From: Limnobacter sp.
GTDB lineage: Bacteria > Pseudomonadota > Gammaproteobacteria > Burkholderiales > Burkholderiaceae_B
Reading direction: 5' to 3'
DNA: 64,000 nt
Assembly: GCA_029866125.1 (NCBI GenBank)
Contig: JARWZZ010000004.1
Span: forward strand, 62,001-126,000
The notes beneath the pieces are model-generated. The model was given only the letters and a program-made list of their open reading frames with translations. It was not told the DNA's origin and did no database searches. This document shows positions 6,292 to 63,260 of the stretch, in pieces (position 1 is the first letter of the stretch; each line of letters begins with the position of its first letter). Made by a program: the position numbers and the translations under genes.

Positions 6292-7407
6292 CTATTTTGA
6301 ACAGGCAATAATCATGTCGCACACCCTGTCTACATCATCATGGCTGAGGTCTGGGTAGATGGGCAAACACAACACCTCTTGCGAGGCTTGCACGGCAATC
6401 GGCAAACGCTTGGGGTCGGCTGAAGGCAAACCCCGGTACATGGGCATGCTGCTAATTAATGGGTAGAAGTAACGACGTGCATAGATGTCCTTCTCGCGCA
6501 TGGTTTGGAACAAAGCATCACGCCCAATTGGGTAGCCCTTACCAATGAATATCGGGAAGTAAGAGGCGTTGCGCTCAGTATCCTCACGCAACGGCATCAT
6601 GGTCACACCTTCAATACCGGCCAAACGACTGCGGTAGCGAGCTTCAATTTCCTTGCGCTTGGCCAACATCGCATCAATGTGCTTGAGTTGCAGAAGACCC
6701 AATGCAGCATTCATCTCACTCATTTTGCCGTTGATACCGGGGGCGGTGACGGTGACTTCATCTGCGAATCCGAAATTTTTGAGGTAACCCAAGCGCTCTT
6801 TCATGGCTTTGTCGGGGCATACGATTGCGCCGCCTTCAAAAGTATTGAACACTTTGGTGGCGTGCAAGCTGAGTACGGATAAATCACCCCAGTTCAACAA
6901 ACTTTTGCCTTTGTATTGAACAGCGAAAGCGTGGGCTGCATCGTAAATCACCTTCAAGCCATAAATGTCCGCAAGGCGTTTAATACCCTCTACATCGCAG
7001 GGGTTTCCATAGCAATGCACCGGCATGATTGCGGTGGTGTTGGGGGTGATGGCCTCCTCGATTCGCGCCGGGTCAAGGTTCAGGGTGTGAGCCTCAATGT
7101 CCACAAAAACCGGTTTAAGGTTATTCCACAGCAAAGAATGGGAAGTGGCTACAAATGAATAGGGGGTGGTAATGACTTCGCCTGTAATACGCAATGCTTG
7201 CAGGGCGGTAACCAATGCGACGGTGCCGTTGGTAAACAGGGCCAAGTTATTGACTTGCAGGTATTGGCAAAGCGCAGCTTCCAGCTTTTGGTGGAAGGGG
7301 CCGTTGTTGGTCAGTATCCGGCTTTCCCAGATTTCTTCCAGATATGGAATGAATTCTTGCAGAGGTGGCAAGGCGGGTTGGGTGACGTAAATCGGCTTTT
7401 TGCTCAT
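6292..7407 (-). CDS. DegT/DnrJ/EryC1/StrS-family sugar aminotransferase
   Basis: A 371-residue PLP enzyme. It shows the family's substrate and PLP motifs: NNGPFHQKLE near residue 34, FTNGTVALVTAL at 58-69, the aspartate of IYDAAHAF (D156) and the Schiff-base lysine in SLHATKVFNTFEGGA (K185). Members convert NDP-4-keto-6-deoxy sugars to 4-amino-4,6-dideoxy sugars (PglE, VioA, DesI type). A clear GAGGAAATCAAG precedes the ATG at 7407. With the acetyltransferase next door it would make a 4-acetamido-4,6-dideoxyhexose nucleotide. The 4,6-dehydratase that should feed it is not in the window. VioA-type enzymes act in flagellin glycosylation in Pseudomonas syringae, which matches the nearby flagellar genes. 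Confidence 0.88.
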   Translation of the reverse strand: MSKKPIYVTQPALPPLQEFIPYLEEIWESRILTNNGPFHQKLEAALCQYLQVNNLALFTNGTVALVTALQALRITGEVITTPYSFVATSHSLLWNNLKPVFVDIEAHTLNLDPARIEEAITPNTTAIMPVHCYGNPCDVEGIKRLADIYGLKVIYDAAHAFAVQYKGKSLLNWGDLSVLSLHATKVFNTFEGGAIVCPDKAMKERLGYLKNFGFADEVTVTAPGINGKMSEMNAALGLLQLKHIDAMLAKRKEIEARYRSRLAGIEGVTMMPLREDTERNASYFPIFIGKGYPIGRDALFQTMREKDIYARRYFYPLISSMPMYRGLPSADPKRLPIAVQASQEVLCLPIYPDLSHDDVDRVCDMIIACSK

Positions 7408-8311
7408 CTTGATTTCCTCTTACGGCAGGGCGTGCTGCTTGTTGCCTGATGTTTGGCCGTTGCTTTAGGGCTATTTTGACCGATTTTACGCGTAAGAACC
7501 ATGTTTTGTTCACCAAAACAGGGGGAGATTGTGGGGGTGTTTTGACTCGATGTGTTGGTCGGAGGTTTGGCGATGCTGGGTTTTGCTGGGCGGCGATGCT
7601 TGGTATTGCAACTTGGCCGCTTTCAACGCTGCTCGGTTTTGCAACTTGGCCCCACTCAGCAGACTGGCCCCCTGGCTTGAAGCGGCCTGTTAACCGGGCT
7701 CCCCTGCATGGGCAGATTTATCGGTACTTTGGATGCTTTGTCGCCCGGGGCCGCTTCTCGAATCGCCACGGGGGCTCAGTCACGCTGAGCGGGTCTACTT
7801 GCTAAGCACCACCGCTGAAATTCTCCGCACACCGCACATCGCACATCGCACATCGCACATCGCCATCAAATTGTCACCGTCCAAGCCGCTGCGCAAGCGC
7901 AATCAGGCTGAACCGTGGTTGCGATTCAGGGGGCGCGCCGGGCGACAAAACACATCTGCAGCAATTAATCCAAGCACGCAGCGGCGCCCGGAAACAAGCG
8001 TCACCAAGCAAACATGGTCGGCCGATTGTGCATGCACAGCGGCGAAAATGTGAAAAATACGGTCAGTCGATCGCGATTAAGCAGCTTAAGCAGCGGCAAA
8101 AAGCAACGACTAAAAGCGGCGTAAAAGCAAGCAACAAGCCACCAAAAGAAAATGGCCGATGAACCCAAGTTCACCAGCCATTTTTTGAGAAACCCCCGCT
8201 GCAGACCCGGAAGAGACAGAGGGTGGGAGGATGCAACCGGACCTTGGTACATCACAGCGAGGGTAATCGGCATCCCCGCAAACATCGCAGGGCAATTGTT
8301 CTTGTTTAAGC
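7408..8311. other. Gene-free region between the aminotransferase gene and flhC
   Basis: About 900 bp without a credible gene. Positions 7408-7520 should hold the promoter of the aminotransferase gene, which reads leftwards. Positions 7606-7652 contain two imperfect copies of TTGCAACTTGGCC about 33 bp apart. Positions 7690-8080 are composite repeat element I. Positions 8081-8311 lead to the end of flhC and show nothing recognisable beyond a purine-rich stretch near 8091-8130. Several open frames of 60-130 codons cross the region on both strands but resemble no protein family. Confidence 0.6.
7690..8080. repeat. Composite repeat element I: inverted arm, 7-bp microsatellite, forward arm
   Basis: Three parts are visible. 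The left arm (about 7690-7826) is in reverse orientation. The centre is CGCACAT repeated four times (7833-7860). The right arm (about 7866-8080) is in forward orientation. The right arm aligns with 56656-56885 over its whole length, sharing GCAAGCGCAATCAGGC, CGCGCCGGGCGACAAAACAC and CCCGGAAACAAGCG in the same order. The reverse complement of the left arm shares GCGATTC, CCGGGCGACAAA, ACCGAT-AATCT and GGAGCCCGG with 56656-56885, with nearly equal spacing (10-11 nt between blocks). No coding sequence with family resemblance was found inside. Its nature (mobile element, RNA, or both) is unknown. Confidence 0.75.
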
Positions 8312-8875
8312 TTAGTCTTCCAAATGCGCTTCTTCGTTGACAAACCGTTCTGAAGCGGCCTGCCTGGTTTTTCCAGCGCGGGATGGCATATTGCACAAAC
8401 CGCACACGTAATCGTTTACCAATTCAAAGGTGTGAACCACAAAGCGGCCACGGCAGGAAGTGCATGCAGTGGTGGTCATCATGCCTGCGTCAAAAAACTT
8501 GACCAATCGCCAAGCCCGCGTCAAGGACAACACCTCTGGCAGGCCCAAATGGCGAATCTGCTCGAGGTACAGACGGTAGGCCTTGATGATTGCCTCAATG
8601 TCTTCAATGTCTGAGCTTTTGATAATTGTGTCGTAAATATTGACGAACAACGACGAATGAATATTCGGTTGCCAAGTCATGAACCAATCGGTTGAAAACG
8701 GCAGCATGCCTTTGGGTGGCGATTTGTGTTTTAGCTCTTTGTAAAGCTTCAACAAACGCTCACGTGACAACTGGGTTTCTGACTCAAGCACTTGCAAACG
8801 TGCATCCAGTTGAATCAGCTCGCTGGCCAATTGGATTTGCAGTGCTTCTGACAAAATTGATTTGACTTTAGCCAT
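8312..8875 (-). CDS. flhC: Flagellar transcriptional activator FlhC
   Basis: A 187-residue protein matching FlhC. It has the N-terminal helical region (LQIQLASELIQLDARLQVLE), the central WQPNIHSSLFVNIY motif and the four-cysteine zinc site CTSC ... CGLC near residues 139-161. FlhC joins FlhD in a heterohexamer (FlhD4C2) that activates class II flagellar promoters with sigma-70. It starts 3 bp after flhD, so the two are co-translated. Downstream lies the gene-free repeat region. The C-terminal tail is short and variable, as in other betaproteobacteria. Confidence 0.97.
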   Translation of the reverse strand: MAKVKSILSEALQIQLASELIQLDARLQVLESETQLSRERLLKLYKELKHKSPPKGMLPFSTDWFMTWQPNIHSSLFVNIYDTIIKSSDIEDIEAIIKAYRLYLEQIRHLGLPEVLSLTRAWRLVKFFDAGMMTTTACTSCRGRFVVHTFELVNDYVCGLCNMPSRAGKTRQAASERFVNEEAHLED

Positions 8876-9205: not shown

Positions 9206-9911
9206 ATGAACACCCTCCAATCTTTCATTAAACCGGGAAACTGGAACTCGCTTATCCACTTTTTTTGGGTTCGCTTCAGTTCGTTTACTCGGCCATGCCC
9301 CTGAACGTAGTATCGGTTAGCAGGCCAAGGACTTGAATCGTCCAAATTCTAAAAAGCGGGTCATCATTCCAACCATTTCTTCTGTAGGAGAAGCCCTTAC
9401 AAGGAGCGATTTCCTGAGTTCAGTGTGCCTCTACTCGGTTGATTTCAACATCCCACCGCTGTGTCACCCCCTCTGTGCCAACCCCATAGTGCCAACACCA
9501 GGGGGGAGCTTGCTTAGGTGATTACAGGTGCTTTGAAAATCCGACAAGCACTACCGCTCCTTTAAGTTATCGACCGTTTACATCAAAACTTGAGGGTATG
9601 AATAAAAAAATATCCCTCATTAGAGGGTGTTTGTTGTGCACCTATCCGAGCAATAAACCCCCCTCCTCAACCCACTCTATTTGTAGCTAATCAGATAGCC
9701 AACCAAGCAGCTAACTATTTTGAGCTGGCCTCTTTAGGCGATCAGAAAGCGATTGCCGACTCTCGTTAAGCAATCATCGGCGATGCATTGCCGTTTACGG
9801 TTTCGGTCGATAAGGTTCGACTTCGGTCGATATCGTTTTAAATCTGGGTCAATAGCCGCTCATCAATGGCAGACCTTATCTAGTAGTTGAGATTCAACGA
9901 GGAGTAACATC
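9206..9911. other. Regulatory region between divergent flhDC and fliC
   Basis: About 700 bp with no credible gene. Visible structure: GTGCCAAC twice near 9475-9496; a stem-loop candidate at 9591-9617 (GAGGGTAT/ATATCCCTC) that competes with a CCCTC/GAGGG hairpin just downstream (to about 9628); and an exact direct repeat TTCGGTCGATA at 9802-9812 and 9822-9832. No sigma-28 promoter with correct spacing was found in front of this fliC copy. A short frame at 9333-9521 does not look coding. Confidence 0.5.
9802..9832 (+). promoter_or_regulatory. Direct repeat upstream of the first fliC
   Basis: TTCGGTCGATA occurs twice, 20 bp apart start to start, ending about 80 bp before the fliC start. The spacing is about two helical turns, as expected for a dimeric activator site. 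GTCGATAA within the first copy also resembles a sigma-28 -10 element, but no matching TAAA lies at the right distance. Role inferred only. Confidence 0.35.
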
Positions 9912-10718
9912 ATGATCGGTATTAATACAAACTCAGCATCCCTTGTAGCGCAGAAGAACCTTGTAGGTAATTCGGCTGGTTTGCAAACTTCAATTGCCCG
10001 CTTGTCCTCTGGCCTGCGTGTAAACTCTGCCCGTGACGACGCCGCGGGTTTGGCCATCGCCACACGTATGAGTGCTGACATCCGTGGTATGGATGTGGCC
10101 AAGCGTAACGCCAACGATGGCGTGTCTGCCCTGCAAGTGGCTGACGGTACATTGGGTGCTGTGTCTGACAACCTGCAGCGTATGCGTGAGTTGGCTGTGC
10201 AATCTGCCACAGGCACACTGACCTCCTCTGACCGTACCAACCTGAATGCTGAATTCCAAGCCTTGAACACTGAAATTGGTGACCAGGTGAGCAAGGCCAA
10301 CTTCAACGGCGTGAAGCTGCTTGATGGCTCTGCAGCAGCCTTGACGATTCAGACTGGCGCTAAAACAGGCGAAACCATCTCTGCAAACTTGGTGAACGCC
10401 ACTGCATTTGATGTAGGTGGTGACGTCACTTCAGTGGCCAACGCCAACACAGCATTGACAGCGATTGACACGCAGCTTGATGCACTGAACACAGGCCGCG
10501 CCACACTGGGTGCTGGCATCAACCGTCTGGATGCAGCGGTGTCCAACCTGTCCACCACCATGACCAACTTAGCGTCCGCGCGAGGCCGAATCATGGATGC
10601 TGACTTTGCGTCAGAAACGGCGAACCTGACCCGAAGTCAGATTTTGCAACAGGCTGGTACTGCGATGCTGGCCCAGGCCAACCAGTTGCCCAACAACGTG
10701 TTGAGCTTGCTGAGATAA
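9912..10718 (+). CDS. fliC: Flagellin FliC (copy 1)
   Basis: A 268-residue flagellin. The N-terminal D0/D1 region begins MIGINTNSASLVAQKNL and includes the conserved LSSGLRVNSARDDAAGLAIA; the C-terminal D1/D0 ends ILQQAGTAMLAQANQLPNNV-LSLLR. The variable middle is very short, so the filament surface domain is nearly absent. GAGGAG precedes the ATG. It differs from the second copy at only about eight to nine residues, at 21 (S/Q region), around 90-100 and in the centre, so the pair comes from recent duplication or gene conversion. It is followed by a strong terminator, so it is a single-gene unit. Confidence 0.97.
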   Translation: MIGINTNSASLVAQKNLVGNSAGLQTSIARLSSGLRVNSARDDAAGLAIATRMSADIRGMDVAKRNANDGVSALQVADGTLGAVSDNLQRMRELAVQSATGTLTSSDRTNLNAEFQALNTEIGDQVSKANFNGVKLLDGSAAALTIQTGAKTGETISANLVNATAFDVGGDVTSVANANTALTAIDTQLDALNTGRATLGAGINRLDAAVSNLSTTMTNLASARGRIMDADFASETANLTRSQILQQAGTAMLAQANQLPNNVLSLLR

Positions 10719-10990: not shown

Positions 10991-11076
10991 CTAAGCATGA
11001 GCAGCGAATTTGAAACGCTGCCCAAGTTGAAAGTTAAAAGGGCAATACCCGTGCCCTAAACACCTGGAGAAATATC

Positions 11077-11883
11077 ATGATCGGAATTAATACAAACTCA
11101 GCATCCCTTGTAGCCCAGAAGAACCTGGTCGGTAACCAAGCCGGTTTGCAAACTTCAATTGCCCGCTTGTCCTCTGGCCTGCGTGTAAACTCTGCCCGTG
11201 ACGACGCCGCTGGTTTGGCCATCGCCACACGTATGAGTGCTGACATCCGTGGTATGGATGTAGCCAAGCGTAACGCCAACGATGGCATCTCTGCCCTGCA
11301 AGTGGCTGACGGTACATTGGGCGCAGTGTCTGACAACCTACAGCGTATGCGTGAGTTGGCTGTGCAGTCTGCCACCGGCACACTGACTTCATCTGACCGT
11401 ACTAACCTGAATGCTGAATTCCAAGCCCTGAACACTGAAGTTGCTGACCAAGTGAGCAAGGCCAACTTCAACGGCGTGAAGCTGTTGGATGGCTCTGCAG
11501 CAACTCTGACCATTCAGACTGGCGCTAAAACAGGCGAAACCATCTCTGCAAACTTGGTCAACGCCAGTGCGTTTGATGTGGGCGGTGACGTCACATCAGT
11601 GGCCAACGCCAACACAGCATTGACAGCGATTGACACCCAGCTGGACAACTTGAACACAGGCCGCGCCACACTGGGTGCTGGTATTAACCGCCTGGATGCA
11701 GCAGTGTCCAACCTGTCCACCACCATGACCAACTTGTCCTCTGCACGAGGCCGAATCATGGATGCTGACTTCGCCTCTGAGACCGCGAACCTGACTCGAA
11801 GCCAGATTCTGCAACAGGCTGGCACTGCGATGCTGGCCCAGGCCAACCAGTTGCCTAACAACGTGTTGAGCTTGCTGAGATAA
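11077..11883 (+). CDS. fliC: Flagellin FliC (copy 2)
   Basis: A 268-residue flagellin collinear with copy 1, with the same terminal D0/D1 motifs and short centre. Replacements include GNQAGL for GNSAGL, TEVADQ for TEIGDQ, AATL for AAAL, QLDNLN for QLDALN and TNLSSAR for TNLASAR. It has its own FliA-type promoter and its own terminator. Ser/Thr-rich stretches in the centre are possible O-glycosylation sites given the nearby glycosyltransferase genes, but this is inference. Confidence 0.97.
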   Translation: MIGINTNSASLVAQKNLVGNQAGLQTSIARLSSGLRVNSARDDAAGLAIATRMSADIRGMDVAKRNANDGISALQVADGTLGAVSDNLQRMRELAVQSATGTLTSSDRTNLNAEFQALNTEVADQVSKANFNGVKLLDGSAATLTIQTGAKTGETISANLVNASAFDVGGDVTSVANANTALTAIDTQLDNLNTGRATLGAGINRLDAAVSNLSTTMTNLSSARGRIMDADFASETANLTRSQILQQAGTAMLAQANQLPNNVLSLLR

Positions 11884-25900: not shown

Positions 25901-26617
25901 TCAATGTACGGGGGTCAATTCCTGCTTACGGGCAAGGATGCGGCTACCCAAGTCCTTCAAATCCAACTTGCTGCTTTTCACCTTGGGGAACATTTCGTTT
26001 TGCTCCTCCTTCACGTGGTGTTTCACGTATTCACATAAAACCATCATCCTTGCAGCAAACATTTCGCCTTCCGGCTCATGCCCTTCGACTTGCGAAATCA
26101 ATTCCTTCAGGGTTGCATGCTCAACCGTGGCCTCGGGCACCAGTGCCTTGTCTTTTAAAGTGGCTTTCACGGCGGGGTAAAAAATTTCCTCTTCCACCTG
26201 GGCATGCACGGTCAGCTCGTGGCAAATTTGGGCGACAAGGGCCCTTTTTTTGGGTAGGGAACGGGTTTTTTGGTATTCAGAAAAAAGTTCGCTGACCAAG
26301 GCATGGTCGGCACGCAAAATGGCAATTGCGTTTTGAGATTTCGTGGTTTTTTTTGCACCCTCCTTGCCCTGCATTTGTGGGGTAGGCAATGGGTAAGGTG
26401 AGGGCAAGGGTTCTTGCGGAGTGGGCGGGGGAATGGAACCATTATTTGCCCCATTACTGGCCCCTTTACTGGCCCCTTTAATGGCCCCCGACATGGTTGC
26501 CGATGAGGCGGCCCATTTTGCTGCTTTGGCTAGGACGGACGGCTTGGCGACGGCCTTTGGGCTCACCTTCGGGTTGGCTTTGGTCTTTACAACTTTGGCG
26601 CTGTCGGATTTAGTCAT
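25901..26617 (-). CDS. Hemerythrin HHE-domain protein with disordered N-terminal tail
   Basis: A 238-residue protein. The first about 100 residues are Lys/Ala/Pro/Asn-rich, with a short repeat of GASKGASNGANNGS type. Residues about 105-238 form the HHE cation-binding domain: DHALVSELFSEYQKTR, ICHELTVHAQVEEEIFYP, VEHATLKELISQVEGHE and YVKHHVKEEQNEMFPKV supply the His/Glu diiron ligands. Such proteins bind oxygen or respond to nitric oxide and iron. The ATG at 26617 follows AAGGAACCAAG; a longer start at 26665 is less likely. It lies between fliE and katE. Confidence 0.85.
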   Translation of the reverse strand: MTKSDSAKVVKTKANPKVSPKAVAKPSVLAKAAKWAASSATMSGAIKGASKGASNGANNGSIPPPTPQEPLPSPYPLPTPQMQGKEGAKKTTKSQNAIAILRADHALVSELFSEYQKTRSLPKKRALVAQICHELTVHAQVEEEIFYPAVKATLKDKALVPEATVEHATLKELISQVEGHEPEGEMFAARMMVLCEYVKHHVKEEQNEMFPKVKSSKLDLKDLGSRILARKQELTPVH

Positions 26618-36753: not shown

Positions 36754-37428
36754 TTGAAGTCAGCCCACTCAAGTTTGATCAAACCCCGACGCATTGGCGC
36801 AAACGCGCTGGTCGCCGGGGTTTTGTTTTGCACCGGCATTGCGGCAAGCTTATACAGCGCCAACAGCCTTGCACAAACAGAAAAAGCACAACAGACAGCC
36901 CCTGCAGCGCCGGTGAATGAAGTCAGCCCCCAACCTGAGGCGCCAGCTGTAACACCGCAAACTACACCGCAAACTACACCACAAGCTTCACCACAAGCTT
37001 CACCACAAACTACGCCACAAACTGCGCCACAAGCCACCGCGCCGGCCACTGCACCCGCCACATCGGCGGACAACAACCCCGCCTCATTCGGCGCAAGCTA
37101 CATCATGCAAACCACACTAGGCTTGCTGTTTGTACTGGCCTTGTTGATGGCACTGGCTTGGGTGCTGAAACGTGCAGGCTTTGCTGGCAGGGCCCGCAAC
37201 AACCAGTTTTACAAAGTACTGGCAGTCAGCTCACTGGGCCCCAAAGAGAAAATTGCACTGCTGGAAGTGGGTGAAACATGGTTGCTGGTGGGCATGACCC
37301 CGGGCAGCATCAACACCCTGCACAGCATGCCCAAAGGCAGTCTGGAATACGACCCCCAATCCAATGCCGCAGTCACATTTGCCAAGCTGCTGGAACGCGT
37401 CAAAAAACCAAACTCCATACAAAAGTAG
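36754..37428 (+). CDS. fliO: Flagellar export protein FliO with Pro/Thr/Gln repeat linker
   Basis: A protein of about 224 residues. A signal-anchor helix near the start is followed by a linker of TPQ-, ASPQ- and TAPQ-type repeats (about residues 68-105) and then a second transmembrane helix (TLGLLFVLALLMALAWVLK). The cytoplasmic FliO domain ends the chain (LGPKEKIALLEVGETWLLVG). The TTG at 36754 has AGGTGG 5 nt upstream; a GTG at 36745 is also in frame. FliO helps assemble the FliP-FliR gate. Confidence 0.88.
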   Translation: MKSAHSSLIKPRRIGANALVAGVLFCTGIAASLYSANSLAQTEKAQQTAPAAPVNEVSPQPEAPAVTPQTTPQTTPQASPQASPQTTPQTAPQATAPATAPATSADNNPASFGASYIMQTTLGLLFVLALLMALAWVLKRAGFAGRARNNQFYKVLAVSSLGPKEKIALLEVGETWLLVGMTPGSINTLHSMPKGSLEYDPQSNAAVTFAKLLERVKKPNSIQK

Positions 37429-39263: not shown

Positions 39264-39744
39264 AAAGCGGCCCGGTGTCGAACAGGTCACCCTTCAATTC
39301 CGATTTGGCTCGATGTTCCACCACAACTGGCTCCTCAACCTCAGGAAACAGGCTGCGCTGGCTCTTTTGCAGGTGGGTGCTTAACTTGTGCAAAAGCTGG
39401 TTCCAGTCAAAGGGCTTGACCAAGTAATCGGTTGCCCCAGCCGAAAATGCAGTTTTCATGTCTTGGGTGTCACTTCGTGCCGACAAGACCACAAAAGGCA
39501 AACGCAACAAGGTGGACTCCGCCCTCACCAACTTGAGCAAACCCAAGCCATCCAGATTAGGCATCATCAGGTCACTCAACACCAAATCTGGCATTGATCG
39601 GCCCGTCAGCAAACCATTCTGGATTTGATTCCATGCGTTTACACCATCGCTGGCCCTAAGCACATCAAATCCGCTTAGTTCAAGCAGCTTAGCCATATTC
39701 TCGAGAAGAATGGGCTCATCCTCTACCACCATTACGATTGACAT
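39250..39744 (-). CDS. Stand-alone receiver-domain response regulator
   Basis: A 164-residue protein: one CheY-like receiver domain and a short Arg/Lys/Glu tail of about 40 residues with no recognisable output domain. The acidic pocket E8/D9, the phospho-acceptor D58 (LVLSDLMMPNLDG), the switch Ser/Thr in VVLSAR and K110 (YLVKPF) are present. Its ATG overlaps the stop of the upstream sensor kinase by 13 bp, so they are coupled and very likely partners. Output must pass through another protein. Confidence 0.9.
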   Translation of the reverse strand: MSIVMVVEDEPILLENMAKLLELSGFDVLRASDGVNAWNQIQNGLLTGRSMPDLVLSDLMMPNLDGLGLLKLVRAESTLLRLPFVVLSARSDTQDMKTAFSAGATDYLVKPFDWNQLLHKLSTHLQKSQRSLFPEVEEPVVVEHRAKSELKGDLFDTGPLFREA

Positions 39745-41807
39745 TCTGTCTCTCTTGCAAAAGGAAACTCAAGGATCAAGCAAAATTTTAATTCTTGTTC
39801 ATGCTTATGAACCAATATATTAAGCCCGCCTTTAATATTTCGTATCACCCGTTTGGTAAGAAGTAAGCCAAAAGGCAAGGCTTCGTCTTGAATTGGCAAC
39901 ACCAAGGCCTCTTTGCAGCCCTCGGAATCTAAAAGCTTCAAATCCCCACCCACCAGCCAATCGGGCTGGGCTGGCAAACAAACGGACAGACTTACTTTAT
40001 GGGCACCCTCACATCTAACCCGCAAGGTTGCACCGGTCAGTTCTTGCATTACATAAACCACAAACTGCCTGATCGCTTGGGTCAAAGGTATTTCAGCCAC
40101 CTCGATCAGCGCTGGCACATCTCCCACCAGCGTCACCTGCACAGCCTGCTCCAAACTCAAATGGCGGCGCTTGGATTCCAGTTCGATGATGTTGCGTACC
40201 ACCGTTGAAATATCCACCCACGTGGTCTCTAGGTCGTGGGACTGGGTGTTGCCCGAGCTCATGAAGTCCAGCGTCTCATCCACCAAGGACCTTAAAGACA
40301 TCAAAGCATTGGACACCTGCTCCGTGTAATCTTGTGCCCGATCCATATCAAGCCGATTCATCCGTATGTCGCTGTCCATCAAGGCATTCGCAGAGGAAAT
40401 GATAGTCATCGGTGTGCGAATTTCATGCGACAAATAGCTCACAAAATCCGACTTCAGTTTGGACAGGGTACTTTCCTCGCTCAACTCCTTACGGATGGCG
40501 TACTCCACATCCATGTCCTTGGTGCGGTCAGTCAAAATACCGACCAAGCGGTTGGGCAAACCATAGGGGTTGCGTACGGCAACAATCCGCACATCCACCT
40601 TCATGACAACGCCCAAAGGGTTGACGTAACGCAGCTGGGCATGCTCCTGCATGCTGCCTGCTGTCAACAGGTTGCTTATCTTTAACCGTGCACTGGACCA
40701 ATCCTCTGGCAATACGCCCTTAAGCAATGTGTTCAATCGCAATTCGGGCTCCATGTAATCAGGAATACCCAACAAATCGCACCAATAAGGCCCAAGTTTC
40801 AAGGTTTGCTTTTCCAAATCCCACTCAAAAATGCCGTCTTCCAGGTTCAACACCGCAGCAATAAGGCTGTCTGCAGAAATTCCACCCGAGTTGTGTTCCT
40901 GTTGAAGCGAGAATTCCAGCTCCTTCACCCGTGCATTGGTTTTAAACAGCAAGTCCCGCTGGTTGGCCACCACCTTTTCTTTCTGAATATTTTCTTCCGC
41001 CAACATCTCCGCTTCACTTTCAAGGCCCAGCACCCGTTCACACACTGCGGCATACACTTTCATCAGCAGCAAGGTGATTAGAGTGAAACAGACCACGGTG
41101 ATCATCCACTCATAAGTGGAGTGGCTGATGGGCAACCAATACCAAGCCAGCTCTTTGGGCCGCTCGGTGAATTCAGCCATTGAAATGGTGACAAACACCA
41201 TGAACTGCATCACAGAGGTAACCAGCAGAATGTGAATCATCCTCGTCAACACTGGCATTTGTATTTGCCGACTTGCCCGATATGCAAATGCTGAAAGACC
41301 AAACATCATGCAGTAAGCCAATGGAAATGCGATCAGAATCGGCCCCCAGTTCACCTCATAAAGGTTACCGAATTGAGGCAACAACATAAACGCGATGGGC
41401 GTAATAAAAAAGGTAATTGTTGTACCCAGTGCATAGCCAAAGCGGTACTGCCACAGGGATTTAATCTGATTCACCAAGGCAACAATAATGCCAATGGTAG
41501 GCAGCAAAATGAGGTAAGACAAAACAATCGCAGTGACTGAGTAAGAGTCAGTCATGTACTTGGGTAAAGCGAGGCTCCCAAACGATGCACAGAAGAAAAT
41601 AGAGCTTTGGTAGCACAACAGAATGGTGAAGCGCCATAGCAGGTATTTACTGCGGGAAAAACTTTCAGACAGGGAGGTTCGCATCTCCACAGCCACCGTC
41701 ATTGCAAGCAGGGCTGCCAAAAACCCATAGCCAACAGAGGCCATTTCCAGTAAGCCCATTAAATCAAGCCAACTGTTTATTGCTTCATTGACGTTCGTAG
41801 ATTGCAT
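39732..41807 (-). CDS. Membrane sensor histidine kinase with degenerate ATPase domain (paralogue 1)
   Basis: A 691-residue protein. Residues 1 to about 260 hold roughly seven hydrophobic segments forming an unknown membrane sensor region. A coiled coil at about 265-305 follows, then a PAS-like domain (LNLEDGIFEWDLEKQTLKLG) and the dimerisation helix with H461 in FVSYLSHEIRTPMTIISSA. The ATPase region lacks the N-box asparagines (the aligned segment reads AIRQFVVYVMQELTG) and the DxGxG box; only a G2-like stretch (LPFGLLLTKRVIRNIKGGL) remains. ATP binding is therefore doubtful. It overlaps the receiver gene and is a close paralogue of the next gene. Confidence 0.85.
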   Translation of the reverse strand: MQSTNVNEAINSWLDLMGLLEMASVGYGFLAALLAMTVAVEMRTSLSESFSRSKYLLWRFTILLCYQSSIFFCASFGSLALPKYMTDSYSVTAIVLSYLILLPTIGIIVALVNQIKSLWQYRFGYALGTTITFFITPIAFMLLPQFGNLYEVNWGPILIAFPLAYCMMFGLSAFAYRASRQIQMPVLTRMIHILLVTSVMQFMVFVTISMAEFTERPKELAWYWLPISHSTYEWMITVVCFTLITLLLMKVYAAVCERVLGLESEAEMLAEENIQKEKVVANQRDLLFKTNARVKELEFSLQQEHNSGGISADSLIAAVLNLEDGIFEWDLEKQTLKLGPYWCDLLGIPDYMEPELRLNTLLKGVLPEDWSSARLKISNLLTAGSMQEHAQLRYVNPLGVVMKVDVRIVAVRNPYGLPNRLVGILTDRTKDMDVEYAIRKELSEESTLSKLKSDFVSYLSHEIRTPMTIISSANALMDSDIRMNRLDMDRAQDYTEQVSNALMSLRSLVDETLDFMSSGNTQSHDLETTWVDISTVVRNIIELESKRRHLSLEQAVQVTLVGDVPALIEVAEIPLTQAIRQFVVYVMQELTGATLRVRCEGAHKVSLSVCLPAQPDWLVGGDLKLLDSEGCKEALVLPIQDEALPFGLLLTKRVIRNIKGGLNILVHKHEQELKFCLILEFPFARETECQS

Positions 41808-41943
41808 GCGGCATTTGGATCGTTTTTGTTAAACTTGATCTTATTGCGCAGCTTGATAATAGACCAGAAAAAATCACCAAAAAGGCTTAATCCCACCCAT
41901 AAGAGTTACCCAAATTGTAGGATTTTTTGTCGACTATACACGA

Positions 41944-44025
41944 TCAATTGGCTTGACACTCCGTTTCCCTGGCAAAGGGAAACTCCATAGCCAAGCAATA
42001 CTTCAACTCATCTCCATGCAGATGAACCAACACGTTCAAACCTCCGTTGATGTTACGAATGACACGCTTGGTCAACAGCAGGCCAAAAGGCAAGGCCTCG
42101 TCTCTAATTTGCAGGGGAATGGGGTCTTTTCCAGGCAAGTTGGGGGTAAGTTTGTATTCAAAGTCGGACAACCATTCTGGCTCTGAAGGCAGGCAAACAC
42201 CCAACCTGATTTTGTGCTCGCCATCGCATTTCACCCACAGGGTGGCGCCGGTCAACTCTTGCATGACAAACACCACAAACTGCCTTACTGCATGCGTCAG
42301 CGGGGTTTCCGACACCTCAATTAACTCGGGCAGGCTGCCGTCCAACTCCACCTGAATGGCTTGGTCCATATTCAAATGGCGGCGTTTGGACTCCAGCTCA
42401 ATCACCGCACGCACCAAGGCCGACACGTTGACTGGCCGTACCTCCGCCTCCATCAAAGGGGCGCTGGTGCCCGTGCTCATGAAGTCAAGGGTTTCATCCA
42501 CCAATGCCCTCAATGACATCAAGGCATTGGATATCTGATCGGTGTAATCTTGAATGTTGTCGGGGTTGAGTCGATTCATACGCAAATCGCTTTCCAGCAG
42601 CACATTGGCGGAGGAAATAATCGTCATTGGGGTGCGAATTTCATGCGACAAATAGCTCACGAAATCCGACTTCAACCGGGACAGGGTGCATTCCTCACTC
42701 AACTCCTTGCGGATGGCGTACTCCACATCCATGTCCTTGGTGCGGTCAGTTAAGGTGCCCACCAAACGGTTGGGTAAACCATACGGGTTGCGCACTGCAA
42801 CTATGCGTACATCCATTTTTAAGATTGCGCCGCTTGGCCTGATGTAACGCAACTGCGCATGTTCCTGCACACTTCCACCCGTCAGCATATTGCTGATTTT
42901 CAAGCGTGCGCTGGCCCAATCTTCAGGCAGCACACCCCTTAGCAGGGTTGCTTGCCGAGTGGCTGAATCCATATGGGTTGTGATGCCCAACATGTCAGAC
43001 CAAATCGGGCCCAACTTCAGGGAATTTTTGTCCAGATCCCACTCAAAAATGCCATCTTCCAAATTCAATACCGCAGTAATCAAACTTTCTGCACAAATTC
43101 CATCGGAATGCTGTTCCTGCTGAAGAGAGAACTCCAACTCCTTTACCCGCGCATTGCTTTTAAAAAGCAAATCTCGCTGATTGGCCACCACCTCTTCTTT
43201 CAACAAATTGTCTCGGGCAAGTTTTTCCGCAGCGCCCTCCAAACCCAGCATGCGGCTGTAAACCTTTTTGTACACACGAATTGTGAACAGGGTCATCAAC
43301 ACGAAGCACAGAATAGTAAGTAACAGCTCGTAATCCTCATGGGACATGTGCATAAAGTGGTCGGAAGAATCTATGGTTTGAGCTTTGAAGTTCACAGTAG
43401 ACAGCACCACACTGACGGTGCTTTGGATAACTATGGTCACCGCAATCACGTGAAACATTCGTTGCGCCACCGGCATTTGCACCCCATGGCGTGCACTTTG
43501 CGCAAAGCCTGAAACAGAGAGCATCGCTACAAACATCAAAGGCACTGAATACAATAAGGCTGTCCCGTCGACAGACTCGATGTCATCCATCTGCGGAAGC
43601 ACTGCAAAGCAAATGGCACCCGCGTGGAACATCACGGTTGTGCACATTGAATACCAAATTCGATACGCCCATTCGGACTTCAGGCGCGTAACAAGCGTAA
43701 TCATCACACCCACAAAAGGGAGCATGAATGCAAAACCAAGCAAAACAGCACTTGCTGAATAATACTCAGTGATGAAACTAGGCAAAGCAAGGCTTGTAAA
43801 GGAGGCGTTAAAAAAAACCGAAAAAACATAAAAAAAGACGTAGCCCATGCGCCAAGTGACATGCCTAAACCTGGGGAAATCGTCACTCAGGGTGATCCTC
43901 ATTTCAATGGCTACAATCATTGAAAACAAGGACGCCAAAAATCCAAGACCCACAGATGAACTTTCGAAATGGACGATAAGGTCCAACCACCGGTCCACCG
44001 CCTCACTTAAAGTTGTTATGAACAT
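41944..44025 (-). CDS. Membrane sensor histidine kinase with degenerate ATPase domain (paralogue 2)
   Basis: A 693-residue protein collinear with paralogue 1: seven-helix membrane region, coiled coil, PAS-like domain (LNLEDGIFEWDLDKNSLKLG) and H461 in FVSYLSHEIRTPMTIISSAN. The C-terminal domain shows the same losses (AVRQFVVFVMQELTG in place of the N-box; no DxGxG) with the retained LPFGLLLTKRVIRNINGGL. The identical histidine number and matched deviations show a tandem duplication after the domain degenerated. Upstream lies the terminator of the che operon. Confidence 0.85.
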   Translation of the reverse strand: MFITTLSEAVDRWLDLIVHFESSSVGLGFLASLFSMIVAIEMRITLSDDFPRFRHVTWRMGYVFFYVFSVFFNASFTSLALPSFITEYYSASAVLLGFAFMLPFVGVMITLVTRLKSEWAYRIWYSMCTTVMFHAGAICFAVLPQMDDIESVDGTALLYSVPLMFVAMLSVSGFAQSARHGVQMPVAQRMFHVIAVTIVIQSTVSVVLSTVNFKAQTIDSSDHFMHMSHEDYELLLTILCFVLMTLFTIRVYKKVYSRMLGLEGAAEKLARDNLLKEEVVANQRDLLFKSNARVKELEFSLQQEQHSDGICAESLITAVLNLEDGIFEWDLDKNSLKLGPIWSDMLGITTHMDSATRQATLLRGVLPEDWASARLKISNMLTGGSVQEHAQLRYIRPSGAILKMDVRIVAVRNPYGLPNRLVGTLTDRTKDMDVEYAIRKELSEECTLSRLKSDFVSYLSHEIRTPMTIISSANVLLESDLRMNRLNPDNIQDYTDQISNALMSLRALVDETLDFMSTGTSAPLMEAEVRPVNVSALVRAVIELESKRRHLNMDQAIQVELDGSLPELIEVSETPLTHAVRQFVVFVMQELTGATLWVKCDGEHKIRLGVCLPSEPEWLSDFEYKLTPNLPGKDPIPLQIRDEALPFGLLLTKRVIRNINGGLNVLVHLHGDELKYCLAMEFPFARETECQAN

Positions 44026-50044: not shown

Positions 50045-51361
50045 TTAGAAAAAGGTGATGTCGTCTTCGGCGCTTGCTTTGGCTGGTGCGGGCTCATCAT
50101 CAAAAAACTCCATGGATGAGTCTGATGTTGCTGTAGTTACCGCAGCAGCTGCAGCCATCGTGGTCGCTGTTGACCTATGGGCTGCCTTGGCCTTTGCGGC
50201 CTGTGTATGGCTTGGGGCGTGCCTCGGTGCATGATTCACACGCTCTTCCGCCATGGTGTAATTCTTCTCAAGGTCATGCATCAAGGTGTCTACATCCAGC
50301 CCCTCCAAACCCTCGCCGATTTGTGATTTCAGGTGTTCCAAACTTTCCCGCACATGGCCCACAATCTGGGACACTCGGTCCTGAAACTGAAAATGCACCA
50401 CTGCGTTGTTCAACGCGCTGGACACTTGTTGCGTGTTTAGAATAATTTTGTCGCTGGCCACTTGCAGGGGTTCGGTCACCTGCTGGAATTGCGTCACCAC
50501 ATTGCCAACCGTATTGCTGGCATGGTCCAACATCTGCGTGTCAGACGATTCCATTTTTGTAGCGCCTTCACCTGCACGGCGTGCAGCGGCTGAAATGTCT
50601 TGCACCCGCTCGCGAATTCTCAAACCTGTTTCAGCAGACAACATGGAAAGCTTGCGCACCTCATCGGCCACAATCGAAAAGCCTCGGCCCTCTTCCCCAG
50701 CACGTGCCGCCTCAATTGCGGCATTCAATGCCAGCAAATTGGTTTTAGCGGCCAACTCCTCTACCGAGGTTGCCATTTTCTTGAGCTCATCGGTTGAAGA
50801 GATAAAGCCCCGCACTTCCTTAAAAATACCGGCCTTGTCATCAAGTGATTTTTTAAATGCATCCAACATCTGCGACAAAGAGCGAGAAACCTCCACCGCA
50901 AGCCCACCGTCTGCGCCTGAAGAGTTACCCAGCACCGCAGCAGCTTGGTTGGCCACCTTCATGGTTTCGTTCAATTTGGAGTGGATCGCACCAAACGCAT
51001 CAGTGAGGTTACAAATCCCCAACTCCATTTGGCCATTGGCCGTCATCAACTGTTTGTCCAAGGTGGGCACCCAAATGTCCCCCAACACCTTCAGCTGCGC
51101 CTCGTCACAACCCGATTGGGCCGATTGGGCTTGTGAAGCCTCCAGCTCAAACTCGGCCTGACGTTTTGCTTGCTCGGATTGTGCTGGCGCACCCAACTTG
51201 CCCGCGGTGAATGCAATACCCACCGCAATCACGCCAAACACTGCAGACACCATGGGGTTAGGCACAGCCACACTGGCTGCGACCAAGCCCAATGAAAACG
51301 CTCCGCCTGCAATTGGCAAAGCCAGTCCGCTTAATCCTGTGGATGGGCTCTTTTGGCTCAT
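50045..51361 (-). CDS. Membrane methyl-accepting chemotaxis protein without periplasmic sensor
   Basis: A 438-residue receptor. Two close hydrophobic segments (about residues 10-55: [20 protein letters not shown] and [15 protein letters not shown]) anchor it with almost no periplasmic loop. The rest is a cytoplasmic signalling domain with [20 protein letters not shown] and [19 protein letters not shown], then [12 protein letters not shown] and an Ala/Thr/His-rich tail. The start at 51361 has AAGGAC upstream and forms an ATGA overlap with the upstream small gene; longer starts look untranslated. Confidence 0.9.
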
Positions 51362-56196: not shown

Positions 56197-56383
56197 GTCG
56201 AATTGGTTCCACACATTCGACTGAGCGGTTTGATTGCATCGTCGCCGCATCGCTCCTTTGCCTGAGTCGTTGCTTCTTCTTTGCTGCATCTTTGCTGCTT
56301 CTTTGCTGCTTCGTTGCTACCCCGTCACCACTTCGCACCCTCGCCTGAGCCGTTGCTGCTTGAAGGGCCTTCGGTTCCGCACA

Positions 56384-56514
56384 CCCTCTGCCTGTCCATG
56401 CCCCGCACGCAACTCGCTGAACCAGAACTTCCCAAGTTCTGGTTCTAGCTCAAACATGCGTGGCGCGGGGGCTCTTCAGCCTTGAGGCTGAAGACCAATG
56501 GACAGGTGCGAGGG
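56384..56514. ncRNA. Candidate branched structured RNA or DNA element
   Basis: Four nested or adjacent perfect or near-perfect stems. The outer stem is CCCTC plus CCTGTCCAT (56384-56399) with ATGGACAGG (56498-56506) plus GAGGG (56510-56514). The second is GCCCCGC-ACGC (56400-56410) with GCGT...GCGGGGGC (56458-56472, small bulge). The third, inside it, is GAACCAGAACTT/AAGTTCTGGTTC (56419-56445, loop CCC). The fourth is TCTTCAGCC/GGCTGAAGA (56473-56494, loop TTGA). Such a four-stem fold is unlikely by chance. Strand and expression are unknown. Confidence 0.45.
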
Positions 56515-56519
56515 CTTAG

Positions 56520-56885
56520 CGGCGGCCCTTCTTGAATCGCAGCAAGACTCCAGGCTGACGGCGCTTGGGTGACTGCGCTGGGGACGACGCAGTTGCCGAT
56601 GCCGATGCCGATGCCGATGCCGATGCCGATGCCGATGCCGATGCCGATGCCGCTAGAATTATCACCGCCCCAAGCTGCCGTGCAAGCGCAATCAGGCAGA
56701 ACCGGATAAGCGATTCAGGGGACGCGCCGGGCGACAAAACACATCTACACCGATGAATCTAAGCACTCTGTGGAGCCCGGAAACAAGCGGCACCTAGCGT
56801 TCTGGTCTGTCGATTGCGCTTGAAAAGGCAGCGACGAGTGGCAGAAACGCGGCATCTATCGCTTAGGTCAGTCGACTGCACTCAC
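56520..56885. repeat. Composite repeat element II: weak inverted arm, 6-bp microsatellite, forward arm
   Basis: The left arm (about 56520-56590, reverse) shares CTTCTTGAATCGC and the AAGCGC/TCAG order with the arms of element I. The centre is GCCGAT repeated nine and two-thirds times (56595-56652). The right arm (56656-56885, forward) matches the right arm of element I in order and spacing, up to GGTCAGTCGA near its end (56865-56875). The left arm is shorter or more diverged than in element I. Confidence 0.7.
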
Positions 56886-56901
56886 ACTGTTCCAGTGAAT
56901 G

Positions 56902-60678: not shown

Positions 60679-61950
60679 ATGGATCGTCGTCAATTTGTAC
60701 AAAGTGGCATTGCAGCCTCCATCATCACCGGTGTGTCCCCCTTGGCATTGGCCAAAGGCAACAAAGCACAAGTTGTGATCGTAGGTGGGGGTTATGCGGG
60801 TGCGACAGCAGCCAAATACATCCGCTTGCTGTCCAACTACAAAGTCAACGTCACATTGATTGAACCCAACCCCACATTTGTGTCCTGCCCTATGTCCAAC
60901 CTTGTGGTCGGCGGCATCAAGAAAATCAGCGACATCAGCAGCCCCTACACCAACCTGCAAAAACGCCATGGCGTAAAAATGATCAAGTCCAGCGTGACTG
61001 CAGTGGATTCAGAGAAAAAAACCGTCACCTTGGCCGATGGCAAAACCATTCAGTACGACAAACTGGTCATGTCCCCCGGTATCGACCTGATTTACGACAG
61101 CATTGAAGGCCTGAAAGCCGCCAACGATGCAGGCGTTACCATTCAAGCCTGGAAAGCTGGCCCCGAAACAGTGGCGCTTCACAAACAACTTGAAGCCATG
61201 AAAGACGGCGGCGTCTTTGCCATTTCCATCCCCAAAGCGCCTTACCGCTGCCCCCCCGGCCCTTACGAGCGGGCCAGCATGGTGGCCAACTACTTCAAAC
61301 AGTACAAGCCCAAAAGCAAAGTGCTGATTCTGGATGCCAATGACAACATCGTGTCCAAAGCAAAATTGTTTTCAGATGCATGGAAAGCCAATTATGGCGA
61401 CATGGTGGAATACCGCCCCAAGCACCAAGTCACAGCAGTGGACGCCGCAAACCGCACATTGAAGTTTGAATTCGAAAACGCAATTCAGGCCGATGTACTC
61501 AACGTACTGCCCGACATGCGCGGCGGCCGTTTGGCAGTGGATTCCGGCATTGCCAACCTCAACAAGCGCTGGGCCGATGTGAATTACATGACTTTCGAGT
61601 CCAAAGTGGCCAAGGACGTCCATGTGATTGGCGACACCGTACAAGGTGCACCTCAAATGCCCAAATCGGCCCACATGGCCAACTCACAAGCCAAAGTGGT
61701 GGCAGCTGCCATTGTGTCCGAAGTCAACGGCTGGGCGCCAAACGCCACACCACTGACCAACAACACCTGCTACAGCTACATCAACACCACCAACGTCATT
61801 CACGTGGCCAGTGTGCATTTGTACAATGCAGAAAAAGGCACCTACCTGCCGGTTGAAGGCTCGGGTGGTGTGTCCAAAGCCCCAAGTGAACTGGAAGGCC
61901 AGTACGCCTGGAGTTGGGCACAAAACATTTGGGCAGACACTTTGGTTTAG
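60679..61950 (+). CDS. fccB: Sulfide dehydrogenase flavoprotein subunit FccB/SoxF-like
   Basis: A 423-residue FAD protein. A Tat-like signal (MDRRQFVQSGIAASIITGVS) leads to the flavin motif VVIVGGGYAGATAAKYIRLL. The redox cysteines lie in FVSCPMSNLVVGG and YRCPPGPYERA, as in flavocytochrome c sulfide dehydrogenase. It oxidises sulfide in the periplasm and passes electrons to the neighbouring cytochrome. Downstream is a bidirectional terminator. Confidence 0.92.
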   Translation: MDRRQFVQSGIAASIITGVSPLALAKGNKAQVVIVGGGYAGATAAKYIRLLSNYKVNVTLIEPNPTFVSCPMSNLVVGGIKKISDISSPYTNLQKRHGVKMIKSSVTAVDSEKKTVTLADGKTIQYDKLVMSPGIDLIYDSIEGLKAANDAGVTIQAWKAGPETVALHKQLEAMKDGGVFAISIPKAPYRCPPGPYERASMVANYFKQYKPKSKVLILDANDNIVSKAKLFSDAWKANYGDMVEYRPKHQVTAVDAANRTLKFEFENAIQADVLNVLPDMRGGRLAVDSGIANLNKRWADVNYMTFESKVAKDVHVIGDTVQGAPQMPKSAHMANSQAKVVAAAIVSEVNGWAPNATPLTNNTCYSYINTTNVIHVASVHLYNAEKGTYLPVEGSGGVSKAPSELEGQYAWSWAQNIWADTLV

Positions 61951-61998
61951 TCGTTTCAGTATCAATATTCTGCTGCCATGACTTGGGCAGCAGGGACG

Positions 61999-62028
61999 AA
62001 AAAAAACCACCCAGAGGGTGGTTTTTTT
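61999..62028. terminator. Bidirectional terminator between fccB and the desaturase gene
   Basis: An A-run, CCACCC, AGA loop, GGGTGG and a T-run (62022-62028) form a perfect stem working on both strands, serving the two convergent genes. Confidence 0.9.
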
Positions 62029-62069
62029 ATCTGCGAATCAGCTGCAGCTCAATGTTTAGCCTCAGCCAA

Positions 62070-63260
62070 TTAGGCATAACGCCGTATGCGCTGGCTCATC
62101 GCCTCAAGCCAACGAATACCGCTTTTCTCTGCGTTGTCGCACCAAGCGCGCAAATTGGCCAGCATCTGCTCTTTGCTCAAATTGGTGCTTTCCCAAATTT
62201 CACGCAACTCACGGCGCTTTTCAACCAGAGTGTGAATCACTTGTGAACGCTTACACAATTCAGCCAAAGACGCTTTTTGCTCCACGCTCAACTTGGATTC
62301 ATCCACGCTCAGCAGCTTTTTAGCCTTCACAATCATTCCGCGTTCTTCGGCGCTGCGGGCCTCGCTCAGCATACGGGCAGACTCTTCTCTAAAAGCCTTG
62401 CGCAAATTGCCTGCATAACGGGCCATTACATCATAGCGGTGGTTAATCAAGGCTTGAACCGAGGCCAAATCCAAATGACCTGCTGGCTTAAACTTGGGCG
62501 CTTCAGCCACTTTCTTAATTTTGACCAAACCCAGCATGCTGAAAATGCGAATGTACATCCAGCCAATATCAAACTCATACCACTTGGAACTGAGCTTGGC
62601 CGAAGTGGCATGCGTGTGGTGGTTGTTGTGCAATTCTTCGCCACCCACAATAATGCCCCATGGGAACACATTGCGGCTTGCATCCGGGCAATCGTAGTTG
62701 CGGTAGCCCCAGTAGTGGCCAATGCCGTTAATCACACCAGCAGCCCAGAAAGGAATCCACACCATTTGGATGGCCCACATGGTCAAGCCGGGCAAACCAA
62801 ACATCAGGAAATCAATCACCAACATCAAACCCAAGCCTTGCCATGGGAATGCGCTGTAAACCTTGTTTTCTAGCCAATCGTCCGGCGTACCATGCCCGTA
62901 TTTGCGAATGGTTTCGGTGTTTTTTGCTTCAGCACGGTACAGCTCAGCGCCTTCCCAAAACACCTTCTTCAAACCACGGGTTTGTGGGCTGTGCGGGTCT
63001 TCGTCTGTTTCGCATTTGGCGTGGTGTTTGCGGTGAATCGCAGCCCAAGCACGTGTGCCCATGCCTGTCGTCATCCACAACCACAAACGGAAAAAATGGG
63101 CCAGCGGTGCCTTCACATCCAAAGCACGGTGCGCTTGTGCACGATGCAAATACACAGTTACTGCAATAATAGTAATGTGGGTTGCAATCAGGGTGTACAC
63201 CACCATCTCAGTGATGGTGGAACCGGTCAGGCCGGAGGTTAAAAATTCAAGCATATTCAC
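62070..63260 (-). CDS. Acyl-CoA delta-9-type fatty acid desaturase
   Basis: A 396-residue membrane protein. The three histidine boxes are HRAQAH, HRKHH and EELHNNHHTHATS, the ligands of a diiron centre. Several transmembrane segments lie between them. The C-terminal about 110 residues are charged and helical, beyond the usual desaturase core. It introduces a double bond into membrane acyl chains using oxygen. The first ATG (63260) is used; the third codon is also ATG. Promoter region 63261-63372 is unremarkable. Confidence 0.93.
   Translation of the reverse strand: MNMLEFLTSGLTGSTITEMVVYTLIATHITIIAVTVYLHRAQAHRALDVKAPLAHFFRLWLWMTTGMGTRAWAAIHRKHHAKCETDEDPHSPQTRGLKKVFWEGAELYRAEAKNTETIRKYGHGTPDDWLENKVYSAFPWQGLGLMLVIDFLMFGLPGLTMWAIQMVWIPFWAAGVINGIGHYWGYRNYDCPDASRNVFPWGIIVGGEELHNNHHTHATSAKLSSKWYEFDIGWMYIRIFSMLGLVKIKKVAEAPKFKPAGHLDLASVQALINHRYDVMARYAGNLRKAFREESARMLSEARSAEERGMIVKAKKLLSVDESKLSVEQKASLAELCKRSQVIHTLVEKRRELREIWESTNLSKEQMLANLRAWCDNAEKSGIRWLEAMSQRIRRYA

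Follow-up and report, generated by a model that had tools for sequence, protein, structure and literature searches.

The closest described systems are families of short repeats. Structured intergenic repeats are common, and for many of them the cause of spread is obscure. REP/BIME elements, which are associated with RAYT, are built of palindromic modules in alternating orientation and lie at gene 3' ends; many BIMEs exist without a RAYT nearby. The REP unit is itself short and carries a conserved 5' tetranucleotide. The pneumococcal BOX element has a boxA-boxB-boxC layout. Bacterial MITEs (Correia/NEMIS, ERIC, RUP, RPE, CIR), as described in the available parts of two sources, are short, gene-free, mostly intergenic and present in many copies, and their transcripts are predicted to form long stem-loops; they mostly have terminal inverted repeats and target duplications, and are A+T-rich (PMC2229807, PMC10969869). 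A further source, also available in part, reports 92 stem-loop sequence families in 40 genomes, repeated, largely intergenic and with a common predicted structure (mostly stem-loops, some double hairpins or more complex forms), whose function is mostly unknown; the word 'compensatory' is absent from that part of its text (PMC2267715).

We analysed a window of 64,000 nucleotides (G000:C16:62001-126000) from a draft Limnobacter genome of 3.28 Mb in 21 contigs (93% complete), the one genome from which the repeat family is described here. Like REP/BIME, the family has palindromic modules, alternating orientation and a position at gene 3' ends. Unlike REP/BIME, its modules measure 156-240 nt (no REP units were recognised in the modules read), and the 93%-complete draft contained no Y1_Tnp domain (PF01797; control positive in 5 of 14 genomes). 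The reverse transcriptase domain RVT_1 (PF00078; control positive in 3 of 14 genomes), expected of a group II intron or a retron-type element, was likewise not found in this draft. With BOX, to which we liken it by layout and not by sequence, the family has in common a modular composite whose middle part varies in repeat number; however, the Limnobacter middle is a microsatellite of 6-7 bp and the modules are inverted hairpins. MITEs, in so far as the above sources cover them, resemble the family in being short, gene-free, intergenic and multicopy with long predicted stem-loops. They differ from it in that its copies have ends that look ragged by eye, that no target duplication was recognised by eye in the flanks of three solo copies, and that the G+C of two copies (0.575 and 0.605) lies above that of the window (0.522). 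As in the stem-loop families, going by the available part of that source, the repeat is largely intergenic with a common predicted structure, but one of its modules is branched and has one helix replaced wholesale (PMC2267715).

Our leading reading, in which our confidence is about even, is that this is a lineage-specific, non-autonomous, gene-free and structured intergenic repeat family. It is best read as MITE- or BIME-like in behaviour, with membership in either class not established. The family offers a testable case of fold-dependent spread, or of fast hairpin evolution by template switching. This case rests on strong covariation, one clean syntenic gain, recent copies, and a helix that changes almost completely amid stable surroundings. 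Further work would best start from the layout in two modules and from the helix that is replaced.

Two composite loci and the arms of the first

The first element sits between flhC (8312-8875, minus strand) and a gene for a DegT-family aminotransferase (6292-7407, minus). From left to right, it comprises an outer tail of degenerate GC(T)GC-rich short repeats (about 7560-7645, read from the sequence and resembling the tails of other copies), a left module that is a diverged inverted B-type hairpin (B', 7646-7804, minus; a row of alignment A4), a central (CGCACAT)6.1 microsatellite (7826-7867, Tandem Repeats Finder), a right B-type hairpin module (7883-8039, plus; R1 match of 157.5 bits, with BLAST copies and covariation), and an outer tail of AAGCAGC-like short repeats (about 8040-8144, from sequence reading and the tails of other copies). 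A terminator-like hairpin (8149-8184, minus; two hairpin scans) lies between flhC and the element. The original prediction was of a gene-free repeat with two arms around a (CGCACAT)n core. The core was recovered as such, and none of the three ORFs overlapping the element contained a Pfam family, in agreement with its being gene-free. The arms are real as well, but their predicted limits were off (the modules span about 7646-7804 and 7883-8039).

At the second locus, a left outer tail (56236-56341) with 11-bp TTGCTGCTTCT units at 56252-56318 (Tandem Repeats Finder; tail comparison) is followed by module A, of about 240 nt (56342-56581, plus), identified by BLAST copies and alignment A3 and predicted to form a branched fold with a three-way junction. 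Its variable helix (56416-56449, plus; alignments A2 and A3) carries the commonest of four alleles. A (GCCGAT)n array of 9.8 copies (56594-56652, Tandem Repeats Finder), a B-type module (56672-56827, plus; R1 match of 181.7 bits, E 3.8e-44) and a right outer tail (about 56828-56890, from sequence reading and the tails of other copies) complete the composite.

The predicted recurrence of the right arm at the second locus was confirmed: blastn within the window aligned it to 56657-56822 with 81% identity over 167 columns (E 5e-39), and the local score was 212, whereas none of 2000 dinucleotide shuffles scored above 50. The left arm had been called a diverged reverse-complement copy of the same sequence. 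Its reverse complement scored 54 against the right arm, where the shuffle maximum was 43 (0 of 2000 shuffles reached the score), and the same-strand control scored 18, a value that 1350 of 2000 shuffles attained. With plain blastn in the window, E was 0.10-0.15 for the two arms and 0.03-0.04 for the left arm against the second copy, so the arm match is about as faint as pairwise methods can show. Model R1, a structure model built without the left arm, recovered it at 7646-7804 on the minus strand with 64.6 bits (E 1.7e-13). We also observed that the right arm scores 58 against its own reverse complement, each arm being itself an imperfect palindrome, and part of the complementarity between the arms follows from this; R1 on the reverse strand of a right arm, however, gave 16.4 bits (C16:119-274, minus), in comparison to the 64.6 bits of the left arm. 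The blastn values within the window are what could speak for a chance or composition artefact. With 0 of 2000 shuffles, and 47 matches in the own genome as against 0 in 15 congeners under the identical model, we regard that explanation as refuted; the arms occur genome-wide and do not arise from chance composition.

The 'giant palindrome' of the original prediction holds as a layout only. In the RNA minimum-energy fold of the first element (folding energy z -3.8) the arms pair mainly with themselves, as two long hairpins, so that the palindrome describes the inverted arrangement rather than the best fold.

Copies, arrays and folds of the family

BLAST found 25 copies of B, of which 23 were aligned (L015 and L024 were left out) to build R1. 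With an E limit of 1, R1 returned 47 matches from the own draft genome; the weakest (E 0.72) is just the reverse strand of another match. The B-type module, of about 156 nt, folds into a single long hairpin with interruptions, and it is found alone, in inverted pairs or behind module A. In all seven pairs of opposed full-length B modules the minus copy lies to the left of the plus copy, with the 5' ends towards the centre (R1 matches at C1:7270/7477, C13:113515/113868, C13:162291/162473, C15:31383/31562, C16:69646/69883, C16:135382/135610 and C16:314678/314843). At eight other loci (C1:155k, C2:104k, C9, C14:82k, C16:118k, C16:150k, C20 and C21; R1 and BLAST) module A stands 5' of B in matching orientation with a hexamer array between them, and a ninth such locus lies where contig C6 begins and is truncated there.

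Many copies have a (GCCGAT)n centre, of 2 to 21 units where the array is complete; at the first element the unit is CGCACAT, and some copies (e.g. L002, L013) have no clear array. Of the 42 ends of the 21 contigs, eleven among those read lie within 5 bases of a hexamer array, so the array lengths there are minima; in practice the arrays break the assembly at these ends. Family places number 19 internal and 14 at contig ends and, since end pieces may join in pairs, these amount to about 26 to 33 sites. Degenerate short repeats were seen in the outer tails of copies, and partial tandem B modules behind several of them. Solo B copies end in paired stems, while the outer ends of composites, read by eye, vary between sites, and no consistent copy ends were found.

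We examined the fold of module B in alignment A4, which holds 33 full-length copies from the 47 R1 matches; partial matches, the reverse-strand match, the longer C13:113515 (with an insertion), C2:104652, C13:113369, C15:230 and C19:305380 were left out. The RNAalifold consensus of these 33 copies has 25 pairs, and 96.2% of 825 cells are paired. Compensated changes were seen in 12 of the 25 pairs, with 75 cells altered on both sides, and neither number was reached in 500 shuffles. The same was true of the covariation score (0.291 versus 0.124) and of the fraction of paired cells; the number of further pair types was reached by 11 of 500. The covariation signal was lost when the pairing partners were slid. 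Copies found by R1 are biased towards the structure model; with the alignment restricted to the 23 copies from BLAST, 6 of 35 pairs were compensated. The fold of module B is thus kept across copies by compensated changes.

Module A gave 18 BLAST matches in the own genome. Thirteen copies were aligned, and twelve were used for the fold (L077 is cut by a contig end), which has 77 pairs with 97.6% of 924 cells paired. The folding energies of the A region were low on the two strands (z -7.0 and -6.2), and that of the second composite gave z -7.1 (20 shuffles). Here the 12 compensated pairs all fall in one 15-pair helix, and the other seven helices have none. The covariation score (0.179 versus 0.075) and the number of cells changed on both sides were reached by 0 of 500 shuffles; two of the five measures were unremarkable (the number of compensated pairs, reached by 24 of 500, and that of further pair types, by 479 of 500), which reflects the few independent changes. 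The branched fold of module A is likewise kept across copies by compensated changes. Among wobble cells counted by hand, G-U exceeds A-C (13 against 7 in module B, 4 against 2 in module A), which does not decide between the strands. Homology of modules A and B is weak (the score was reached by 41 of 2000 shuffles) and is not claimed.

The helix that is replaced wholesale is the unusual part of the family. It has four alleles among the 13 copies (in seven, two, one and three copies). Its geometry is constant, as are the letters next to it, a C-rich loop and a position left unpaired on the 3' side, and the remainder of the module hardly varies. Template switching within a hairpin can change both arms of a helix at once and leave the surroundings as they were. 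One could also imagine a novel fold-dependent mobile nucleic acid whose modules flank a slippage-prone core, the helix being swapped between sub-lineages as a tag of specificity or identity towards some partner (an enzyme, a target or a competing element). As template switching needs no role in specificity, we give this reading a low probability.

Genomic sites, relatives and the proposed manner of spread

For the analysis of sites we took 32 places, of which 18 are internal and 14 lie at contig ends, and set aside the weak C16:343476; genes were predicted by a simple codon score. Ten of the internal sites lie between convergent genes, eight between tandem genes and none between divergent genes. 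The first count had been nine, nine and none; two loci, L204 and L210, were re-read, and the reading of L204 moved one tandem site to convergent. If a quarter of gaps are assumed to be divergent, the chance of finding none in 18 is about 0.006 (hand calculation). At 12 of the 14 contig-end places the 3' end of a gene faces the element. Nearly all sites of the family lie behind genes. A promoter scan gave two weak matches near the first element, none at its centre and none at the second locus.

This position, together with the folds kept in A and B, could indicate an RNA that serves the host at 3' ends, transcribed from the neighbouring genes and acting as a BIME-like bidirectional terminator, an insulator or a protector of mRNA 3' ends, with host selection keeping the fold. 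In favour, several convergent sites (e.g. C20:61.5k, C13:162k, C13:113k and C6:79k) showed no terminator-like hairpin between the stop codon and the element on either side. In a count over 29 of the 32 places, however, 16 of 38 facing gene ends already have such a hairpin ahead of the element, and those transcripts should stop short of it. As this rate is close to that at other gene ends in the window (5 of 14), the elements do not seem to replace terminators, an idea that we dropped. The family is also absent from 15 congeners, which share the neighbours at two loci. We think the host role rather unlikely.

In these relatives, R1 at E 0.01 found nothing in any of the 15 congeners, and neither did BLAST with module A. 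BLAST with the right arm across 40 genomes including the own matched the own genome and a single 27-base stretch in G006 (E 9e-4), which we took as chance. The composite was not found in 267 other genomes of the taxonomic family (two candidates scored per genome), nor an exact 21-mer in genome contigs (a set that perhaps excludes the own genome). Plasmids and phages gave no match to the repeat family. Rfam 15 had none at gathering score across the whole window, and at loose E-values only weak matches that either fall elsewhere than in the modules or score well under that threshold, which agrees with the prediction that no described RNA family would fit. A limited literature search, beyond which we claim no absence from print, found no paper combining all features of the family.

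We compared five loci with congeners. At C16:135k the neighbours (presumably a GGDEF gene and a clpA-like gene) are syntenic, and the interval is 597-728 bp shorter in 9 of 10 congeners (differences taken by hand; the tenth had no middle match, and four of the ten sequences were read). This one locus, about 600-730 bp shorter in relatives, supports a gain of the element in the own lineage. In G008 and G010, congeners with a genome in a single contig, the two sides of C16:150k are far apart; at least 11 drafts have them on different contigs, among the matches listed (which do not include the right side of G002 and G011). At C20:61.5k all six congeners compared, two of which are single-contig, have the two sides apart. 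The second locus (C16:118k) is syntenic, but a gene that we take to be channel-like, noticed by eye in the congener sequences L237-L240 (four congeners), is missing where the element stands. For the first element, the FlhC of the window has 84-89% identity to the eleven best loci, mostly named Limnobacter (e.g. L. humi, L. alexandrii), which places the genome in that genus. The sequence downstream of flhC differs in 11 flhC loci, and the DNA examined at 22 loci contained no recognised DegT aminotransferase. Synteny is thus broken at 3 of the 5 loci. Since a break against all four compared congeners also occurs at a plain terminator without an element (61950-62105), the association of elements with breaks is suggestive only.

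All 11 Limnobacter flhC loci show strong conservation of a segment of about 80 nt directly behind flhC (8187-8264, minus). The ends of this segment are complementary, a terminator-like hairpin comes next, and Rfam matches here are weak only; it is possibly a small RNA or a 3' UTR element.

Averaged over comparisons with every other copy, the identity of single copies runs from 0.58 to 0.80, and the closest pair reaches 0.99. The 23 right modules have a mean identity of 0.83 to one another; for the seven inverted B' modules the corresponding mean is 0.66, and it is 0.59 when they are compared with the right modules. Judged by these identities, the copies range from old to recent.

Can such a family have arisen with no mobility at all, from a few old hairpins that grew in number through segmental duplication, gene conversion, slippage and rearrangement? 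The ragged tails, tandem partial modules, microsatellite centres and synteny breaks would all fit. The number of dispersed sites does not, nor do copies that have the module but not the flanking genes in common, the solo B copies in short intergenic gaps and the one clean syntenic gain, and we consider this origin unlikely. The modules could also be folded recombination sites of the integron (attC-like) kind, i.e. single-strand hairpins for a tyrosine recombinase; their imperfect pairing, conserved layout and one variable helix speak for this. We did not recognise attC end motifs by eye, and saw no cassette-like arrangement in the loci read. We hold this to be very improbable.

A lineage-specific non-autonomous repeat family, the reading that we prefer, would spread through a folded single strand (RNA or DNA) acted on by an enzyme or a copying process. 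Badly folding copies would then leave no descendants, as the folded strand is what gets acted on. At the 3' ends of genes the element would be tolerated, since an insertion there disrupts neither promoters nor reading frames; its central array may grow by slippage, and copies may sometimes turn into points of local rearrangement. The ending of transcripts between convergent genes would be a secondary role. We infer the dependence on the fold, and host selection would yield equal covariation. The original prediction had offered a non-autonomous mobile element or a structured RNA pair; these are non-exclusive, and the data do not separate them. The gene-free family, the conserved fold and, from one locus, the gain in this lineage are supported; mobility itself is inferred, with no consistent ends, target duplication or enzyme found. 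The suggested comparison of occupied and empty sites gave the clean gain at C16:135k.

Several candidates were rejected along the way. Exact 19-base matches to two viral contigs, L084 and L083, had raised a viral origin; L084 is A+T-rich and unrelated. In L083 (10329-10374, minus) the 19 bases come from module B and are joined by a closing arm of GCCGG type, a short hairpin match (E 0.073) that is probably due to chance, and the module A pattern was not found in the search for a viral origin. A hexamer array in congener G010 (L167) proved to be GCCGAT in frame, coding an Ala-Asp repeat in a 744-aa ORF; the hexamer places in G009 (L165, L180) lie near similar protein sequence and look related to it, judged from ORF lists. 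A 97-bp stretch with many congener matches (50648-50745) was dropped as it lies inside a coding frame, which we take to be of methyl-accepting type.

The window holds further repeats. Two 300-bp stretches (9901-10200 and 11066-11365), 1165 bp apart, are 94% identical, and the first lies inside an ORF that is presumably flagellin-like. A direct duplication at 39725-43250 has a spacing of about 2215 bp and four blocks that are 70-82% identical, and 12-bp tandem repeats occur at 26439-26488 (4.2 copies) and 36952-37032 (6.8 copies).
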